Shown: piece after piece, positions 1,933-6,886 of the stretch
How the letters are laid out: each line of letters starts with the position of its first letter
Numbering within the stretch: position 1 is the first letter of the stretch
Origin: Bacillota bacterium
GTDB taxonomy: Bacteria; Bacillota_A; Clostridia; Lutisporales; Lutisporaceae
Direction of reading: 5' to 3'
Length of the DNA: 7,353 nucleotides
Assembly: GCA_022706865.1 (NCBI GenBank)
Contig: JAKJBT010000079.1
Coordinates: 1 to 7,353 of the forward strand
Program-made: the position numbers and the translations under genes
Notes under the pieces: generated by a model
Databases searched by the model: none
What the model saw: only the letters and a program-made list of their open reading frames with translations
What the model was told of the DNA's origin: nothing

Positions 1933-1961
1933 TAAACATTGAATCATTAATGTTGTATAAT
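1933..1961 (+). promoter_or_regulatory. predicted promoter for the radical SAM operon
   Basis: TAAACA (1933-1938, four of six matches to TTGACA) is followed after 17 bases by a perfect TATAAT (1956-1961). A second perfect TATAAT lies 11 bases on, at 1967-1972, without a clear -35 of its own. Start would be near 1968 or 1979, giving a 25-40 base leader to ATG 2005. Confidence 0.55.
1935..1954. promoter_or_regulatory. candidate operator AACATT-N8-AATGTT
   Basis: Perfect 6-base inverted repeat arms (1935-1940 and 1949-1954) with an 8-base centre fill the space between the -35 and -10 boxes of the radical SAM promoter. A dimeric regulator bound here would block RNA polymerase. The right arm overlaps a perfect CATTAATG palindrome at 1945-1952. 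The regulator is unknown. Confidence 0.4.
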
Positions 1962-2004: not shown

Positions 2005-3198
2005 ATGTCTGAATTCAAGAATAAAATTGCTTTAGCAAAAGCACTGTTGTCAAACATTAGGATAATAAGGGTAAAACCTTCTATAAACCTGTTCCTGGCT
2101 GATTATATGAAGAAGTTCAAATTATTGAATGTCGGCGGGCAGCTGATAATCCATTCCCATCTGCCTTCAATAAACAGCAAAGCATTCAGCCGCTTCATAA
2201 ATGAGCATCTGCTGGCAAAAACCGAAGGGCCCTCCCATGCACAAATCTGCCTGACCAATGCCTGCCCGCAGAATTGCAGGTATTGTTACAACAAGAACAG
2301 AAGCGGTGAGCTCCTGAATAAGGACGAAATCAAGCGGCTTATACAGGAACTGAAGGAAATGGGTGTTGTCTGGCTCGGCTTTACCGGGGGAGAACCCCTA
2401 TTGAACAAAGACATTGTTGAGATTGTTGAAAGTGTGGGAGATGACTGCGCAATAAAGCTGTTTACCACAGGAGTAAATCTTACGGAAAATTTGGCAGCGG
2501 AGCTTAAAAGAGCAGGGCTTCTGTATGTTACAGTCAGCCTGGACCATTGGAACGAAGAAGAACATGACCGGATCAGGGGATATGCAGGGGCATTCCGTAC
2601 GGCACTCAGGGCAATAGAAATATTTAAGAATAATGGTATTCATACCAGTGTGTCATCGGTTATTTCCCGGGAGATGGTAAAAGAAAACAAGGTGAGTGAA
2701 CTGCTGGAGTTCCTGATAAGCCTTGGTATCCACGAAGCCTGGCTGAGTGAAACAAAGCCGACGGTAGAAGCTTTCTGGAATGAGGCTTCGGTTATTACCG
2801 AAGAGGAAAGGCTAAGCCTGGTAAGCTTGCAGGATAAATACAACAAAGAGGGAAGGATAACGGTAAATTATCTTGGACATTTTGAAGGAAGAGAGCATTT
2901 CGGCTGTAATGCGGGCAATAAAATGGTATATATTGATGCATTCGGAGAAGTAAGCCCCTGTGTATTTACACCCATGACCTTTGGAAATGTGCGGGATAAG
3001 TCGGCGCAAACCGTTTTTTCGGAGATGAAGGAGCATTTTCCGTCGGAAAGCAGCTGCTTTATTAATAAAAATTACGAATTGCTGAAAAAGCATTATAAGG
3101 GGCAATCACCTATCAGCAAAGAAGATACCCTGGAGATGATGAAGGAGGTCCGGTTCAGCCCGATGTCCGAATTCTTCAGATTGTATTATAAGAGATAA
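2005..3198 (+). CDS. radical SAM protein with cysteine-bearing C-terminal region
   Basis: The 397-residue product is a radical SAM enzyme, which uses a [4Fe-4S] cluster to split S-adenosylmethionine and start radical chemistry. The cluster motif CPQNCRYC (CxxxCxxC) has Cys at 87, 91 and 94, and the SAM-binding GFTGGEPLL lies at 125-133. Strands LFTTG (153-157) and VTVSLDHWN (176-184) fit the rest of the barrel. About 82 residues precede the domain. The C-terminal part has GCNAGNKMVYIDAFGEVSPC (Cys301, Cys319), then FGNV, and Cys351 in SSCF, which resembles a shortened SPASM or twitch-type auxiliary cluster region. SPASM proteins commonly modify peptides or mature enzymes. I chose ATG 2005, since GGGGTG at 1992-1997 lies 7 bases upstream; in-frame ATG 1990 has no ribosome site. 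It is first in a five-gene run, with the next start 18 bases after its stop. No precursor peptide gene was found beside it. Substrate unknown. Confidence 0.9.
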   Translation: MSEFKNKIALAKALLSNIRIIRVKPSINLFLADYMKKFKLLNVGGQLIIHSHLPSINSKAFSRFINEHLLAKTEGPSHAQICLTNACPQNCRYCYNKNRSGELLNKDEIKRLIQELKEMGVVWLGFTGGEPLLNKDIVEIVESVGDDCAIKLFTTGVNLTENLAAELKRAGLLYVTVSLDHWNEEEHDRIRGYAGAFRTALRAIEIFKNNGIHTSVSSVISREMVKENKVSELLEFLISLGIHEAWLSETKPTVEAFWNEASVITEEERLSLVSLQDKYNKEGRITVNYLGHFEGREHFGCNAGNKMVYIDAFGEVSPCVFTPMTFGNVRDKSAQTVFSEMKEHFPSESSCFINKNYELLKKHYKGQSPISKEDTLEMMKEVRFSPMSEFFRLYYKR

Positions 3199-3216
3199 GA
3201 TTGTGGGGGTATGTGC

Positions 3217-3654
3217 ATGAGAATTTATAAACTGTTCAGCATTGCCGCAGCGGCAATATTTGCAGTTGTAGGCATTATTTTTCTGTTTTTCCCTGACTCA
3301 GCTCTGATTTTTTTTAATAATATTTCGGGTTATTTCGGATTACCCCAGGCCCCGCTGCAAGGTGCCGGATTTTATCTTATACTGGCTTCGGCTTATATGT
3401 ATTTTGTAACTTTGCTTGCATATCTGATGTATCGCCATCCGGAGGAGAATATTTACCCGTTGCTGCTGGTACAGGCTAAACTGGCATCTTCTGTGATTTC
3501 CCTATACCTGTTCATGATACACCGGCCTTACCTTATATATTTCGCCAATTTTGTCATTGACGGCTTCATAGGCATATCAGTATTATGCCTCGTGAAAATG
3601 AAAAAAAAGAGGTTTTATTATGCTTCTGAAAATAATACAGATTTACGTTCCTGA
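3217..3654 (+). CDS. four-helix integral membrane protein, unknown function
   Basis: The 145-residue product is largely hydrophobic, with four probable membrane helices near residues 5-27, 49-72, 80-101 and 105-127. Short loops contain FPDSALIFFNN (25-35), YRHPEENIYP (72-81) and HRPY (102-105). The tail after helix 4 is basic (KMKKKRFYY), suggesting a cytoplasmic C-terminus. I do not recognise the family; no catalytic motif is visible. GTGGGGG (3203-3209) lies 7 bases before ATG 3217; the earlier in-frame ATG 3211 is too close to that site. The gene overlaps the next by 35 bases and sits between the radical SAM and Cys-rich genes, so it may anchor or serve that system at the membrane. This is inference from position. 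Confidence 0.75.
   Translation: MRIYKLFSIAAAAIFAVVGIIFLFFPDSALIFFNNISGYFGLPQAPLQGAGFYLILASAYMYFVTLLAYLMYRHPEENIYPLLLVQAKLASSVISLYLFMIHRPYLIYFANFVIDGFIGISVLCLVKMKKKRFYYASENNTDLRS
3241..3257 (+). repeat. 17-bp perfect palindrome inside the membrane protein gene
   Basis: ATTGCCGC-A-GCGGCAAT is perfectly self-complementary about a single central A. In RNA it could form a 7-bp GC-rich stem with a CAG loop, 24 bases after the start codon. It encodes IAAAAI of the first membrane helix, so alanine codons may explain it, but such a hairpin could tune translation. Confidence 0.4.
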
Positions 3655-4153
3655 ACCTATCAGGAAAAGGAAGCTCAATGAATTGTTCCGCTTGACGGCT
3701 GATGCCTTTCAATGTGGGCCGCCGGAGCTCAGGGGGCTTTCTTTTGCGGATTGCCTGTCGAAATACGCCTTATTTACAAGGGAACAGGCTGAGAGTTATT
3801 TGGCAGGCGGAGCCCCTATTGAAGAAATAAAACACCGGTTGTACCAGAATTCTTTTATCTATGGGCAGGACCTGAGGAAAAGCTTTCATATATCAGAATG
3901 GGAGGAGTCTGTTAAAGCCCTTGGTATTATTTACAGGCTTATCGGTATAGATTTTCATTATGAAGGACAGGGCGAATTCATTATTAAACAGTGTTTTTTC
4001 AGCAGGTATTATACAAAGGAAGCCTGTATGCTTATCTCTTCACTGGATGAAGGAATGGCAGCAGGGCTTTCAGGAGGCGGCAGGCTGTGCTTTAATGGGA
4101 GGATCACCGAAGGCTTCGGCTGCTGTAAAGGATTTTTAAGGCAGGGAGACTGA
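3620..4153 (+). CDS. unrecognised cysteine-rich protein next to GMC oxidoreductase
   Basis: I do not recognise this 177-residue protein with confidence. It has no signal peptide or membrane segment. The N-terminal half is charged and helical-looking (residues 10-110, with RGLSFADCLSKYALFTREQA at 38-57). The C-terminal part is striking: Cys125, Cys136, then SSLDEGMAAGLSGGGRLCFN (140-159) and RITEGFGCCKGF (161-172), giving Cys at 125, 136, 157, 168 and 169. This spacing recalls the Cys-containing C-terminal segments of the L-2-amino-thiazoline-4-carboxylate hydrolase-like and V4R-type families, but that is only a loose resemblance. A ligand, metal or Fe-S binding role is plausible. AAGAGG (3607-3612) lies 7 bases before ATG 3620. 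The gene overlaps the membrane protein gene by 35 bases and ends 2 bases before the GMC gene, so the products are likely made together; it could be an accessory subunit of the oxidoreductase. Confidence 0.75.
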   Translation: MLLKIIQIYVPEPIRKRKLNELFRLTADAFQCGPPELRGLSFADCLSKYALFTREQAESYLAGGAPIEEIKHRLYQNSFIYGQDLRKSFHISEWEESVKALGIIYRLIGIDFHYEGQGEFIIKQCFFSRYYTKEACMLISSLDEGMAAGLSGGGRLCFNGRITEGFGCCKGFLRQGD

Positions 4154-4155
4154 AA

Positions 4156-5457
4156 ATGAAGAAAGTGATTGTAGTCGGCAGCGGTGCCGGCGGAGCAGCC
4201 GCTGCATCAATGCTGCAGGGGAAATTTAATGTAACCATCCTGGAGGCAGGCAGAGAGTTCAAGCCTTTTTCTTTCAGCTTGTCCGTCCTGGAAAAGCTTA
4301 AAAAGACCGGCCTTTTCTTTGATGAAAGAGAAATCCGGCTGCTGTTTCCGTCAATGAGAGTCCGTAAAACCGAGAATAAGATGGTTTTGGTCAACGGGGT
4401 CGGATTGGGCGGGACAACCACAATTTCTGCAGGAAATGCCCTCCGGCTGGACAAAGGGCTGAATATGCTTGGAATTGAGCTTGAGGAAGAATTCCGGGAG
4501 CTTTACGAGGAAATTCCAATTACGTATGATCATCAAAATAAATGGAGAGACACAACAAAAAAGTTGTTTGAAATATGCAGGGAAATGGAGCTGGATCCAA
4601 AGCCCATACCGAAGCTTGGAGATTACAGGAACTGCACAGGCTGCGGAAGGTGTGTACTGGGCTGCAGATACGGTGCTAAATGGGACAGCCGTCAAATGGT
4701 TGCAGCCGCACAGGATGCAGGAGCGGAACTCATTACAGGCTGCAAGGTTTTGAAGGTGGTTGTCGAAAAGGAGTATGCCAAGGGAGTACATACAAATAAA
4801 GGCTTCTATCCGGCTGATATTGTCATACTGGCAGCCGGGGGTTTTTCTACCCCTGTAATCCTTCAGAATTCGGGCATCGGATGTGAAAGCAGGCTGTTTG
4901 TCGATCCGGTTCTCTGCATAGCGGCCGAGTATAAAGGAAGCCTTCAGAATAAAGAGCTTTCAATGCCCTTTGCCGTGCAGAGGGAGCATTATATCTTATC
5001 TCCGTATTTTGACTACCTGAGTTTTTTCTTTAATAAAAGCTGGCGGTATCTCGCTTCCGATACTCTGTCACTGATGATTAAGCTGGCGGATTCAAGCACC
5101 GGAAGTATTGATAAAAATAATATCGATAAAACGCTTACCGGTATTGATAAAGAAAGGCTGCAGGAGGGAGTCGGGATTTGCAGGGAGATACTTGACAACT
5201 TTGGTATAAAAAAGGACGATATTTTCCTTGGAACGATAAATGCCGGACATCCCGGCGGTATGCTGCCGCTTACAAGTAAGGAAGCGGAGACCTTCCACAA
5301 TCCCGGACTCCCCGAAAACCTGTATGTTGCAGATGCAACCCTGTTTCCGGAATCCCTGGGGAATCCTCCTATACTTACAATAATGGCTATGGCAAGGAAA
5401 GCTGCTAAAATTATTATGAAACGATTTGATGTGGGAAATTTTGCAGGAGGACATTAA
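4156..5457 (+). CDS. GMC-type FAD oxidoreductase with four-cysteine Fe-S-like motif
   Basis: This 433-residue flavoprotein belongs with glucose-methanol-choline (GMC) oxidoreductases, which typically oxidise alcohols. VIVVGSGAGGAAAA (4-17) is the dinucleotide-binding Rossmann loop, with Glu30 in ILEAG for the FAD ribose. GVGLGGTTTISAGNA (81-95) matches the GMC flavin segment. The C-terminal block GTINAGHPGG (359-368), LYVADATLFPES (389-400) and GNPPILTIMAMARKAA (402-417) is typical of the GMC C-terminal domain, with His365 and Asn403 as candidate catalytic residues. Residues 160-170 read CTGCGRCVLGC, a CxxCxxCxxxC ferredoxin-type pattern that could hold a [4Fe-4S] cluster. Related Cys-rich segments occur in the fatty-alcohol-oxidase-like branch of the family. 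At 433 residues it is shorter than many GMC enzymes (about 500-560). GGGAG (4144-4148) lies 7 bases before the ATG. Donor substrate and electron acceptor are unknown; the Cys motif suggests electron transfer to a protein or membrane partner rather than direct reaction with oxygen. Confidence 0.87.
   Translation: MKKVIVVGSGAGGAAAASMLQGKFNVTILEAGREFKPFSFSLSVLEKLKKTGLFFDEREIRLLFPSMRVRKTENKMVLVNGVGLGGTTTISAGNALRLDKGLNMLGIELEEEFRELYEEIPITYDHQNKWRDTTKKLFEICREMELDPKPIPKLGDYRNCTGCGRCVLGCRYGAKWDSRQMVAAAQDAGAELITGCKVLKVVVEKEYAKGVHTNKGFYPADIVILAAGGFSTPVILQNSGIGCESRLFVDPVLCIAAEYKGSLQNKELSMPFAVQREHYILSPYFDYLSFFFNKSWRYLASDTLSLMIKLADSSTGSIDKNNIDKTLTGIDKERLQEGVGICREILDNFGIKKDDIFLGTINAGHPGGMLPLTSKEAETFHNPGLPENLYVADATLFPESLGNPPILTIMAMARKAAKIIMKRFDVGNFAGGH
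5445..5450 (+). promoter_or_regulatory. consensus ribosome binding site deciding a TTG start
   Basis: A perfect AGGAGG lies in the last codons of the GMC gene, 8 bases before TTG 5459. It rules against the in-frame ATG at 5426, which lies upstream of this site. Confidence 0.7.
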
Positions 5458-5458
5458 A

Positions 5459-6886
5459 TTGAATGCTGTAAATATAAATGAAGTAATAAGTAAACTGCCT
5501 GACTTGCCTGAGGGCTGTAATGAGCTTAATGATTTGCTGATTAAAAAAATCATGAAGCAGAATATCAAGCTGTTTGTTTTGGACGATGATCCGACCGGTG
5601 TCCAGACTGTCAATAATATTCCCGTACTAACAGTGTGGGATGAAGAATCAATAAGGTCGGCATTTCTGGAAAAGGCCAATTTAATATACATTCTTACGAA
5701 TAGCCGAGGTTTGAAAGCAAAGGATGCAGAACATATAAACAGTGTTATTGCTGAAAGAATCTGCAATATTTCACTTGAAACGGGGAAAGCCTTTAATATA
5801 ATCAGCAGGAGCGACTCAACCTTAAGAGGGCATTACCCCCTTGAAACTGAGACAATACGTAGAGTAGTAGAGGGAAAAACAGATATAAGAATCGACGGGG
5901 AGATAATCATCCCGTTTTTTAAGGAAGGCGGCAGATATACAGTTAATGATATTCATTGGATAGAAGATAATGGCAGGTTGATACCGGCAGGTGAAACAGA
6001 ATTCGCAAAAGACGCTGCATTCGGTTATGAAAATTCCGACCTGAAGCTGTGGGTGGAAGAAAAGACCCTGGGAAAGCATAAGTCAAATGATGTAATATCA
6101 ATTTCCCTGGATATGATAAGAGAACAGGGATATGATGAGATTGCCAAAACTTTGCTTGGTGCTGAAAAGTTTCAGAAAATCATAGTCAATGCTTTTGACT
6201 ATAGTGATATTGTAATTTTTACCATGGGACTCATGCTGGCGGAAGAGCAGGGGAAGAATTTTTTGTTCAGGACAGCGGCATCCTTTGTAAAAGTAAGAGG
6301 CGGAATAAAAGATAAAAAATTGCTTACTAAAGATGAATTGATTAAGTATAATAACAAAGGCGGGCTTGTTATTGTCGGTTCCTATGTAGAAAAAACAACA
6401 AACCAGTTATATGCCGCAATGGAGCTTGAATACCTGAAAACCGTTGAGCTAAGTGTGAATAAGGTTATCAGCGGCGAAATGCATAGTGAAATATCCAGGG
6501 TTTCGGCCATAGCAGAGAAAGAAATTGCCAATGGAAATACTGTATTGGTATATACCAGCAGGAATCTGGTAAAGGTATCGCAAAAAATCAGTGAAGAAAA
6601 CCTGGAGGTTTCTGTAAAAGTCTCTTCAGCGCTTGTGAATATTGTGAAATCTCTTAATACGGCGCCAAGTTTCATTATTGCAAAGGGCGGGATTACTTCC
6701 AGCGACATAGGGACCAAAGGGCTTGGGGTAAAGAGAGCACTGGTTGCAGGACAGATAAAGCCGGGGATACCTGTATGGATAACAGATGAAAACAGCAAGT
6801 TTCCGGAAATTCCGTATATTATTTTTCCAGGAAATGTCGGCAATAATCAAACACTGAAAGAGATAATTGCTGAATTGACAATATGA
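5459..6886 (+). CDS. four-carbon acid sugar kinase family protein (DUF1537)
   Basis: The 475-residue product matches the four-carbon acid sugar kinase family (formerly DUF1537; OtnK/DtnK types), ATP-dependent enzymes that phosphorylate acids such as D-threonate, D-erythronate or 2-oxo-tetronate in catabolism. The N-terminal sugar-acid-binding domain shows LDDDPTGVQTV (41-51), TNSRG (80-84) and SRSDSTLRGHYPLE (116-129). The C-terminal nucleotide-binding domain shows GSYVEKTTNQL (307-317), KGGITSSDI (409-417), the LVAGQIKPGIPVW region (428-440) and PGNVG (457-461). Length is near the usual 420-480, and all expected blocks are present, so it looks intact. The start is TTG with AGGAGG 8 bases upstream; it begins 1 base after the GMC stop, so translation is probably coupled. 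Usual partners (PdxA2-like or NAD-dependent dehydrogenase, aldolase) are absent from the window. I cannot tell which acid it uses. No convincing terminator follows the stop. Confidence 0.92.
   Translation: MNAVNINEVISKLPDLPEGCNELNDLLIKKIMKQNIKLFVLDDDPTGVQTVNNIPVLTVWDEESIRSAFLEKANLIYILTNSRGLKAKDAEHINSVIAERICNISLETGKAFNIISRSDSTLRGHYPLETETIRRVVEGKTDIRIDGEIIIPFFKEGGRYTVNDIHWIEDNGRLIPAGETEFAKDAAFGYENSDLKLWVEEKTLGKHKSNDVISISLDMIREQGYDEIAKTLLGAEKFQKIIVNAFDYSDIVIFTMGLMLAEEQGKNFLFRTAASFVKVRGGIKDKKLLTKDELIKYNNKGGLVIVGSYVEKTTNQLYAAMELEYLKTVELSVNKVISGEMHSEISRVSAIAEKEIANGNTVLVYTSRNLVKVSQKISEENLEVSVKVSSALVNIVKSLNTAPSFIIAKGGITSSDIGTKGLGVKRALVAGQIKPGIPVWITDENSKFPEIPYIIFPGNVGNNQTLKEIIAELTI

Follow-up and report, generated by a model that had tools for sequence, protein, structure and literature searches.

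The stretch of DNA considered here, called the window throughout, comprises 7,353 nucleotides of contig JAKJBT010000079.1 (GCA_022706865.1) from a Bacillota bacterium of the Lutisporaceae. It holds four closely packed genes at 2005..5457, all on the + strand and in the order ORF1-ORF2-ORF3-ORF4 (ORF, open reading frame), which encode a radical SAM/SPASM enzyme, a membrane protein with four transmembrane segments (4-TM), a Cys-rich protein and a GMC-type flavoprotein. On the evidence of sequence comparison, the four genes form a real conserved unit, kept in a fixed order among mostly different neighbours. For its function we propose, at a probability of roughly 0.3, that ORF1 would functionalise, anaerobically, a hydrophobic molecule held in the membrane and that ORF4 would then oxidise an alcohol; the unit character comes from comparison, while we infer every chemical step of the pathway. 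No description of the four-gene cassette was found in the open-access literature.

Conservation of the cassette as a unit

All four genes occur on the same strand and in the same order in 11 other genomes (G184, G209, G258, G820, G333, G500, G542, G521, G850, G002 and G001; 13 loci fetched), and the order is the same in 12/12 loci that hold all four, the window included. G184, G209 and G258 share upstream DNA and are close kin, not independent cases. An earlier reading of the window from its letters alone (the sequence-only reading) had proposed the cassette and left open whether its homologues would lie scattered; we looked for such scattering and found the genes together in these genomes. 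Relatives of ORF4 were gathered by one scan of public genomes (3 loci) and by whole-genome searches with a 26-row ORF4 profile, which matched 6/398 genomes at E<=1e-20 and, at E<=1e-40, 4/391, 4/73 and 2/198 genomes of overlapping samples. The ORF3 profile matched 5/398 genomes, exactly those carrying a close GMC homologue; the sixth GMC genome is G216 (locus L022), whose one cassette-like gene is a distant GMC homologue (30% identity) and which lacks ORF1. The ORF2 profile matched 4/391 genomes, again exactly the four with ORF4. That the two 398-genome searches, and likewise the two 391-genome searches, used the same draw is judged from equal numbers and from equal handles in the listed parts. 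In these large samples each genome is scored only for its few top candidates, so that misses are possible, and the completeness of the searched genomes is not given.

Chance adjacency of four unrelated genes could draw on the distant GMC homologues that stand without ORF1-ORF3 at L022 and, as far as the fetched stretch shows, on a Photobacterium plasmid. It is nevertheless extremely improbable in view of the constant order in the complete loci, and we regard it as ruled out by the exact co-occurrence, in two genome samples, of ORF2 and ORF3 matches with the close GMC genomes. Pairwise identity among the 12 cassettes averages 76, 68, 64 and 77% for ORF1 to ORF4, and the identity vectors of the four proteins correlate at 0.90-0.97 (L025 and L026 taken as they stand).

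Departures from the common pattern are few. ORF1 was present in 11 of the 13 locus genomes searched for it. In G521 (L025, 5756-6814) its frame is shorter, at 352 amino acids (aa), with a C-terminal end altered relative to its relatives, and in G850 (L026, 9224-10921, - strand) a single 565-residue open frame covers both ORF1 and ORF2. In G003 (L029, 4801-7201) a TetR-type gene is followed by ORF3 and ORF4 only, and no ORF1 match was found in that genome at E 1e-25.

The layout in the window is given in Table 1. ORF1 is placed at its listed start, although the mechanical ORF opens at 1990; the residue encoded at the listed start is the exact mechanical ORF opening in the relatives L002, L017, L018, L019, L020 and L024. 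For ORF2, the equivalent of the ATG at 3217 is used by most of 34 aligned relatives, and with this start the intergenic gaps are 18, -35 and 2 bases, just as first described. The claim that one promoter serves the cassette fared less well. A sigma-70-like site does precede ORF1, but such sites are common in the window (26 found vs 16.5 +/- 3.6 in shuffles), and a single promoter for the cassette is therefore at most putative.

Table 1. Coordinates of the cassette genes and of two adjoining features in the window
Feature	Coordinates	Strand	Length	Remarks
ORF1, radical SAM/SPASM enzyme	2005..3198	+	397 aa	PF04055, PF13186
ORF2, 4-TM membrane protein	3211..3654	+	147 aa	consensus start 3217
ORF3, Cys-rich protein, apparent distant relative of L-2-amino-thiazoline-4-carboxylic acid (ATC) hydrolase	3620..4153	+	177 aa
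ORF4, GMC-type flavin adenine dinucleotide (FAD) oxidoreductase	4156..5457	+	433 aa	PF00732
Promoter-like site, predicted	1933..1961	+		upstream of ORF1; 10/12 consensus matches
Four-carbon-acid-sugar-kinase-like neighbour (SBD_N/NBD_C)	5459..6886	+		local only; PF07005, PF17042

The four proteins

The identities first read for the two enzymes are confirmed by Pfam, with ORF1 matching PF04055 (4e-28) and the SPASM family PF13186 (5.5e-6) and ORF4 matching GMC_oxred_N, PF00732 (1.5e-18). ORF1 has the CxxxCxxC motif of the radical SAM core at C87/C91/C94. These three residues, together with C148, C301, C319 and C351, are invariant in an alignment of 11 ORF1 sequences (window included, L025 left out). 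A full SPASM domain has seven Cys and two auxiliary clusters. The C-terminal region of ORF1 falls short of this pattern, with only C301, C319 and C351 invariant, a set that suggests one auxiliary cluster with a free iron site. ORF1 also lies far below the cut-offs of many radical SAM families (TIGR04053 106.6/395, PqqE 99.6/381, MftC 86/265 bits). In a profile search its nearest solved structures were SkfB (3.6e-16), MoaA, cytosylglucuronate decarboxylase and PqqE. The core aligns with SkfB, PqqE and MoaA, and the alignment with SkfB (78-337) also takes in part of the C-terminal domain; ORF1 differs from all three in its operon partners and has fewer invariant C-terminal Cys than a full SPASM domain. 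We also considered prokaryotic viperin (pVip), an anti-phage protein, and rejected it, since the match (2.3e-18) covers only the core, over residues 83-233, and does not extend to full-length pVip; ORF2-ORF4 gave no PADLOC match at E<=0.01.

The two middle products had been called unrecognised, and the window's copy of ORF2 reaches no Pfam cut-off. ORF2 has four hydrophobic segments, and an N-in/C-in topology is suggested because its positive charges concentrate in the termini and inner loop (per sequence, 2.2 at the N-terminus, 4.2 at the C-terminus and 1.6 in the inner loop, against 0.5 in each outer loop). Among the 120 listed of 164 homologues, Y64 and D117 are conserved in 120/120 and K90, S93 and N113 in 119/120, with K90 in predicted TM3 and D117 in predicted TM4. 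The single ORF1-ORF2 frame of G850 fits an N-in ORF2 that would dock a cytosolic ORF1.

ORF3 is less anonymous than it had seemed. The window's copy has no Pfam family over the cut-off and no match to PF14196, the ATC-hydrolase family, but PF14196 matches 18/30 of its homologues at E<0.1 (best 2.8e-5), and the homologue P0102 bears a precomputed PF14196 label. Judged through these homologues, ORF3 appears to be a distant relative of the ATC hydrolases. C125, C136 and D143 are present in 120/120 and C169 in 118/118 of its homologues (120 listed of 411). The best predicted model (predicted local distance difference test score, pLDDT, 91.8) matches the Bet3/V4R/XylR-N fold and would place ORF3 in the shared-fold group of Bet3, V4R, XylR-N and H-NOX; the matches include the phenol-binding domains of MopR and PoxR. 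One ORF3 homologue, P0002, is 99% identical to the window's and is labelled Candidatus Diapherotrites archaeon (metagenome-assembled genome). This, the only archaeal label met, is probably a binning label, because most other named hosts of homologues are Clostridia-like. Another ORF3 homologue is listed for Acetivibrio cellulolyticus.

In ORF4 the FAD Rossmann motif of the GMC domain is well kept (G8 118/118, G10 117/117, G13 118/118), as are a catalytic His, H365 (120/120), and its partner N403 (117/119), which we take, from a segment alignment, to be equivalent to the His/Asn pair of cholesterol oxidase. A CX2CX2CX3C motif at C160/C163/C166/C170 occurs in 120/120 sequences (120 listed of 2784 homologues), and reads as a [4Fe-4S]-type, ferredoxin-type Cys pattern. 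ORF4 resembles cholesterol oxidase in its GMC FAD domain, with profile residues 369-426 aligning with 1coy, and its Cys segment aligns weakly with the FAD-dependent glucose dehydrogenases 6a2u/8hdd; both are distant (profile E 4.1e-6 and 0.0021, respectively).

Proposed pathway and competing explanations

We propose that in anaerobic bacteria the four proteins of the cassette would make up a redox pathway complete in itself, acting on a hydrophobic molecule in or at the cytoplasmic membrane, with a lipid or isoprenoid as the favoured class of substrate. ORF1, whose SPASM-like domain is reduced and has one putative site for an additional Fe-S cluster, would work on the cytoplasmic side of the membrane, kept there by N-in ORF2, and would functionalise an unactivated carbon of the substrate. 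ORF2 may be more than an anchor, with a candidate head-group or catalytic site, because conserved Lys, Asp, Asn, Ser and Tyr residues lie within its predicted TM helices. ORF3 is a putative ligand binder, because some known members of the Bet3/V4R/XylR-N fold hold hydrophobic ligands, and would bind or present the intermediate; a metal may sit at the Cys/Cys/Asp/Cys set of ORF3. ORF4 would use FAD and the His/Asn pair of the GMC family to oxidise an alcohol of the intermediate, and may relay the electrons one at a time, by way of its [4Fe-4S]-type site, to a carrier rather than to O2. Set out in full, as an undescribed anaerobic pathway on a membrane lipid or isoprenoid, with a docked radical SAM enzyme, a 4-TM protein with a buried Lys/Asp site, a Bet3-like carrier and an Fe-S GMC dehydrogenase that works without oxygen, this stays a tentative proposal.

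That radical SAM enzymes can act on lipid tails has been established with GDGT-MAS (PMC9433317). ORF1 resembles this enzyme (GDGT-MAS/Tes, PDB 7tol) in the radical SAM core, at E 1e-8 over residues 79-214. The match stops short of the rubredoxin and auxiliary-cluster domains described for it (PMC9433317), and the partner proteins differ; 7tol is absent from the matches at E<=1e-8 in the ORF1 profile search.

Several points weigh against a lipid pathway of this kind. The likeness of ORF1 to GDGT-MAS is confined to the core and ORF1 is nearer to SkfB and MoaA, neither of which is a lipid enzyme. The single ORF1-ORF2 frame was met once only (1/12 cassettes), and the ORF2 protein search, which skips proteins >1.75x the query length, is blind to others. 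Of five ORF3 models only the best is confident (91.8, against 66.4, 61.7, 59.0 and 58.5 for the rest), the Foldseek E-values are weak (best 1.1e-3), and the Bet3/V4R/XylR-N fold is common to proteins of quite different roles, while a structure search with ORF2 was uninformative. ORF4 may act without ORF1, given L029 in G003, unless that assembly is incomplete. The functional proposal as a whole draws on comparison and predicted models.

A somewhat unlikely alternative is that the cassette makes and recycles a redox cofactor in the manner of mycofactocin, ORF1 building it from a precursor whose gene lies elsewhere or from a small metabolite and ORF4 re-oxidising it as MftG does. MftC is the radical SAM/SPASM enzyme of the mycofactocin system, and the cassette resembles that system in having a radical SAM/SPASM enzyme and a GMC flavoprotein in one gene cluster; models of PqqE, NirJ, AhbD and MftC rank close to the top for ORF1, as do MftG models for ORF4. 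The mft cluster comprises mftA-F plus mftG, with a TetR-like regulator also present in such clusters, and electrons taken from mycofactocinol reach the respiratory chain through MftG (PMC11778925); two of our loci have an adjacent TetR gene. Membership of the mycofactocin family itself is rejected, in agreement with the sequence-only reading, as both enzymes fall far below the curated cut-offs: ORF1 scores 86 bits against 265 for MftC (TIGR03962), and ORF4 45.9 against 400 (TIGR04542) and 28.5 against 387.45 (TIGR03970) for MftG. The cassette differs further in its added 4-TM and PF14196-like proteins and in the ferredoxin-type Cys motif of ORF4. That reading had also seen no MftA, MftB or glycosyltransferase, and the searches made here found none, though they are not conclusive. 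MftB (TIGR03967) was found in 0/13 genomes but also in 0/14 control genomes. Among the 20/24 neighbours scanned with Pfam there was no MftF-like glycosyltransferase (the genomes were not searched for one). For precursors, stop-to-stop stretches (>=18 residues) within 800 bases either side of the cassette were compared across the 12 loci, without use of the MftA model; none matched at an E-value better than 0.005, apart from DNA that the close kin L017-L019 have in common. It also speaks against such a cofactor that no family of dehydrogenases is found next to the cassette in >3/14 loci.

The same lack of a precursor-like ORF conserved beyond close kin bears on maturation of a ribosomally synthesised and post-translationally modified peptide (RiPP), in which ORF1 would modify a peptide encoded away from the cassette and ORF4 would be a tailoring oxidoreductase. 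SkfB as the nearest solved structure to ORF1 (3.6e-16), and the sactipeptide and nif11 maturase models among its matches, lend this some colour, yet none of the four proteins exceeds the Pfam cut-off for a peptidase or exporter family, and we think it quite unlikely. Less remote, but still unlikely, is a module that breaks down or detoxifies hydrophobic alcohols or aromatics, in which ORF3 would be an XylR-type ligand binder and ORF4 the dehydrogenase. It would account for the fold match of ORF3 to MopR and PoxR, for ORF3-ORF4 without ORF1-ORF2 at L029, for the adjoining TetR-type gene at L024 and L029, and for corrinoid-protein or methyltransferase-like genes in the fetched stretch of L017, L018, L020 and L024. 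Against this, the adjoining TetR gene was found in only 2/13 fetched loci and no flanking family occurs in >3/14 loci; to our knowledge, a radical SAM/SPASM enzyme would also be unusual in catabolism.

Surroundings and wider meaning

An all-against-all ORF comparison found 12 flanking families in >1 of 14 loci and none in >3, most of the recurring ones falling among the close kin L017-L019. Of 24 neighbours chosen by eye, the 20 scanned with Pfam cover a single flank of L027 and of L029 and neither flank of L028. They include an ABC permease, a rubredoxin-like protein, DNA glycosylases, a flavodoxin, an MmyB-like protein, TetR and GntR regulators, a tripartite transporter receptor, a nitroreductase, an S-layer protein, a corrinoid protein, a 2-hydroxyglutaryl-CoA dehydratase subunit and others, with 3/20 lacking any Pfam family. 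A corrinoid-protein family lies near the cassette in L017, L018 and L020 (B12-binding in L020), and a second family, methyltransferase-like by eye, in L017, L018 and L024 (L017 15082-16770, L018 3-1632, L020 4597-7451, L024 5603-6592). Their recurrence possibly reflects only the abundance of such genes in these anaerobes. Related ORFs, phosphatase-like by eye, lie beside the lone distant GMC gene of L022 (3953-4522) and downstream of ORF4 on the opposite strand in L028 (7224-8459).

In the window, close packing continues past ORF4, as the kinase-like gene (PF07005 4.8e-43, PF17042 3.8e-35; scanned from 5426) can open at a TTG 1 base past ORF4, with AGGAGG in front. It had no match among the translated ORFs (>=70 aa) of the 13 other loci (phmmer). 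A tie of the cassette to the window's kinase, cupin and other flanking genes is rejected, as none had a match in the ORFs of those loci. The Cupin_2 protein gene (1313-1846, - strand; Pfam 9.5e-12) is divergent from the cassette. Two overlapping genes at 57-1288 (200 and 210 aa) reach neither a Pfam nor an NCBIfam cut-off, and the first looks acetyltransferase-like by eye.

The sequence-only reading had suggested a distinct redox-cofactor, lipid or alcohol-processing system; the distinct and conserved cassette stands, and the functions proposed for it are still ones that we infer. Two members of the cassette have no confident Pfam family, and the set of four is found in scattered anaerobes. 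Some carriers of homologues are named Formimonas, Dehalobacter and Dehalobacterium, which are dichloromethane- and organohalide-degrading groups. Radical SAM enzymes paired with flavoproteins have led to unexpected cofactors before. The cassette is small and self-contained, and its product can be sought directly by deletion and comparison of lipids and metabolites. If the proposed pathway is correct, these patchily distributed anaerobes would make a lipid or redox molecule that is new.

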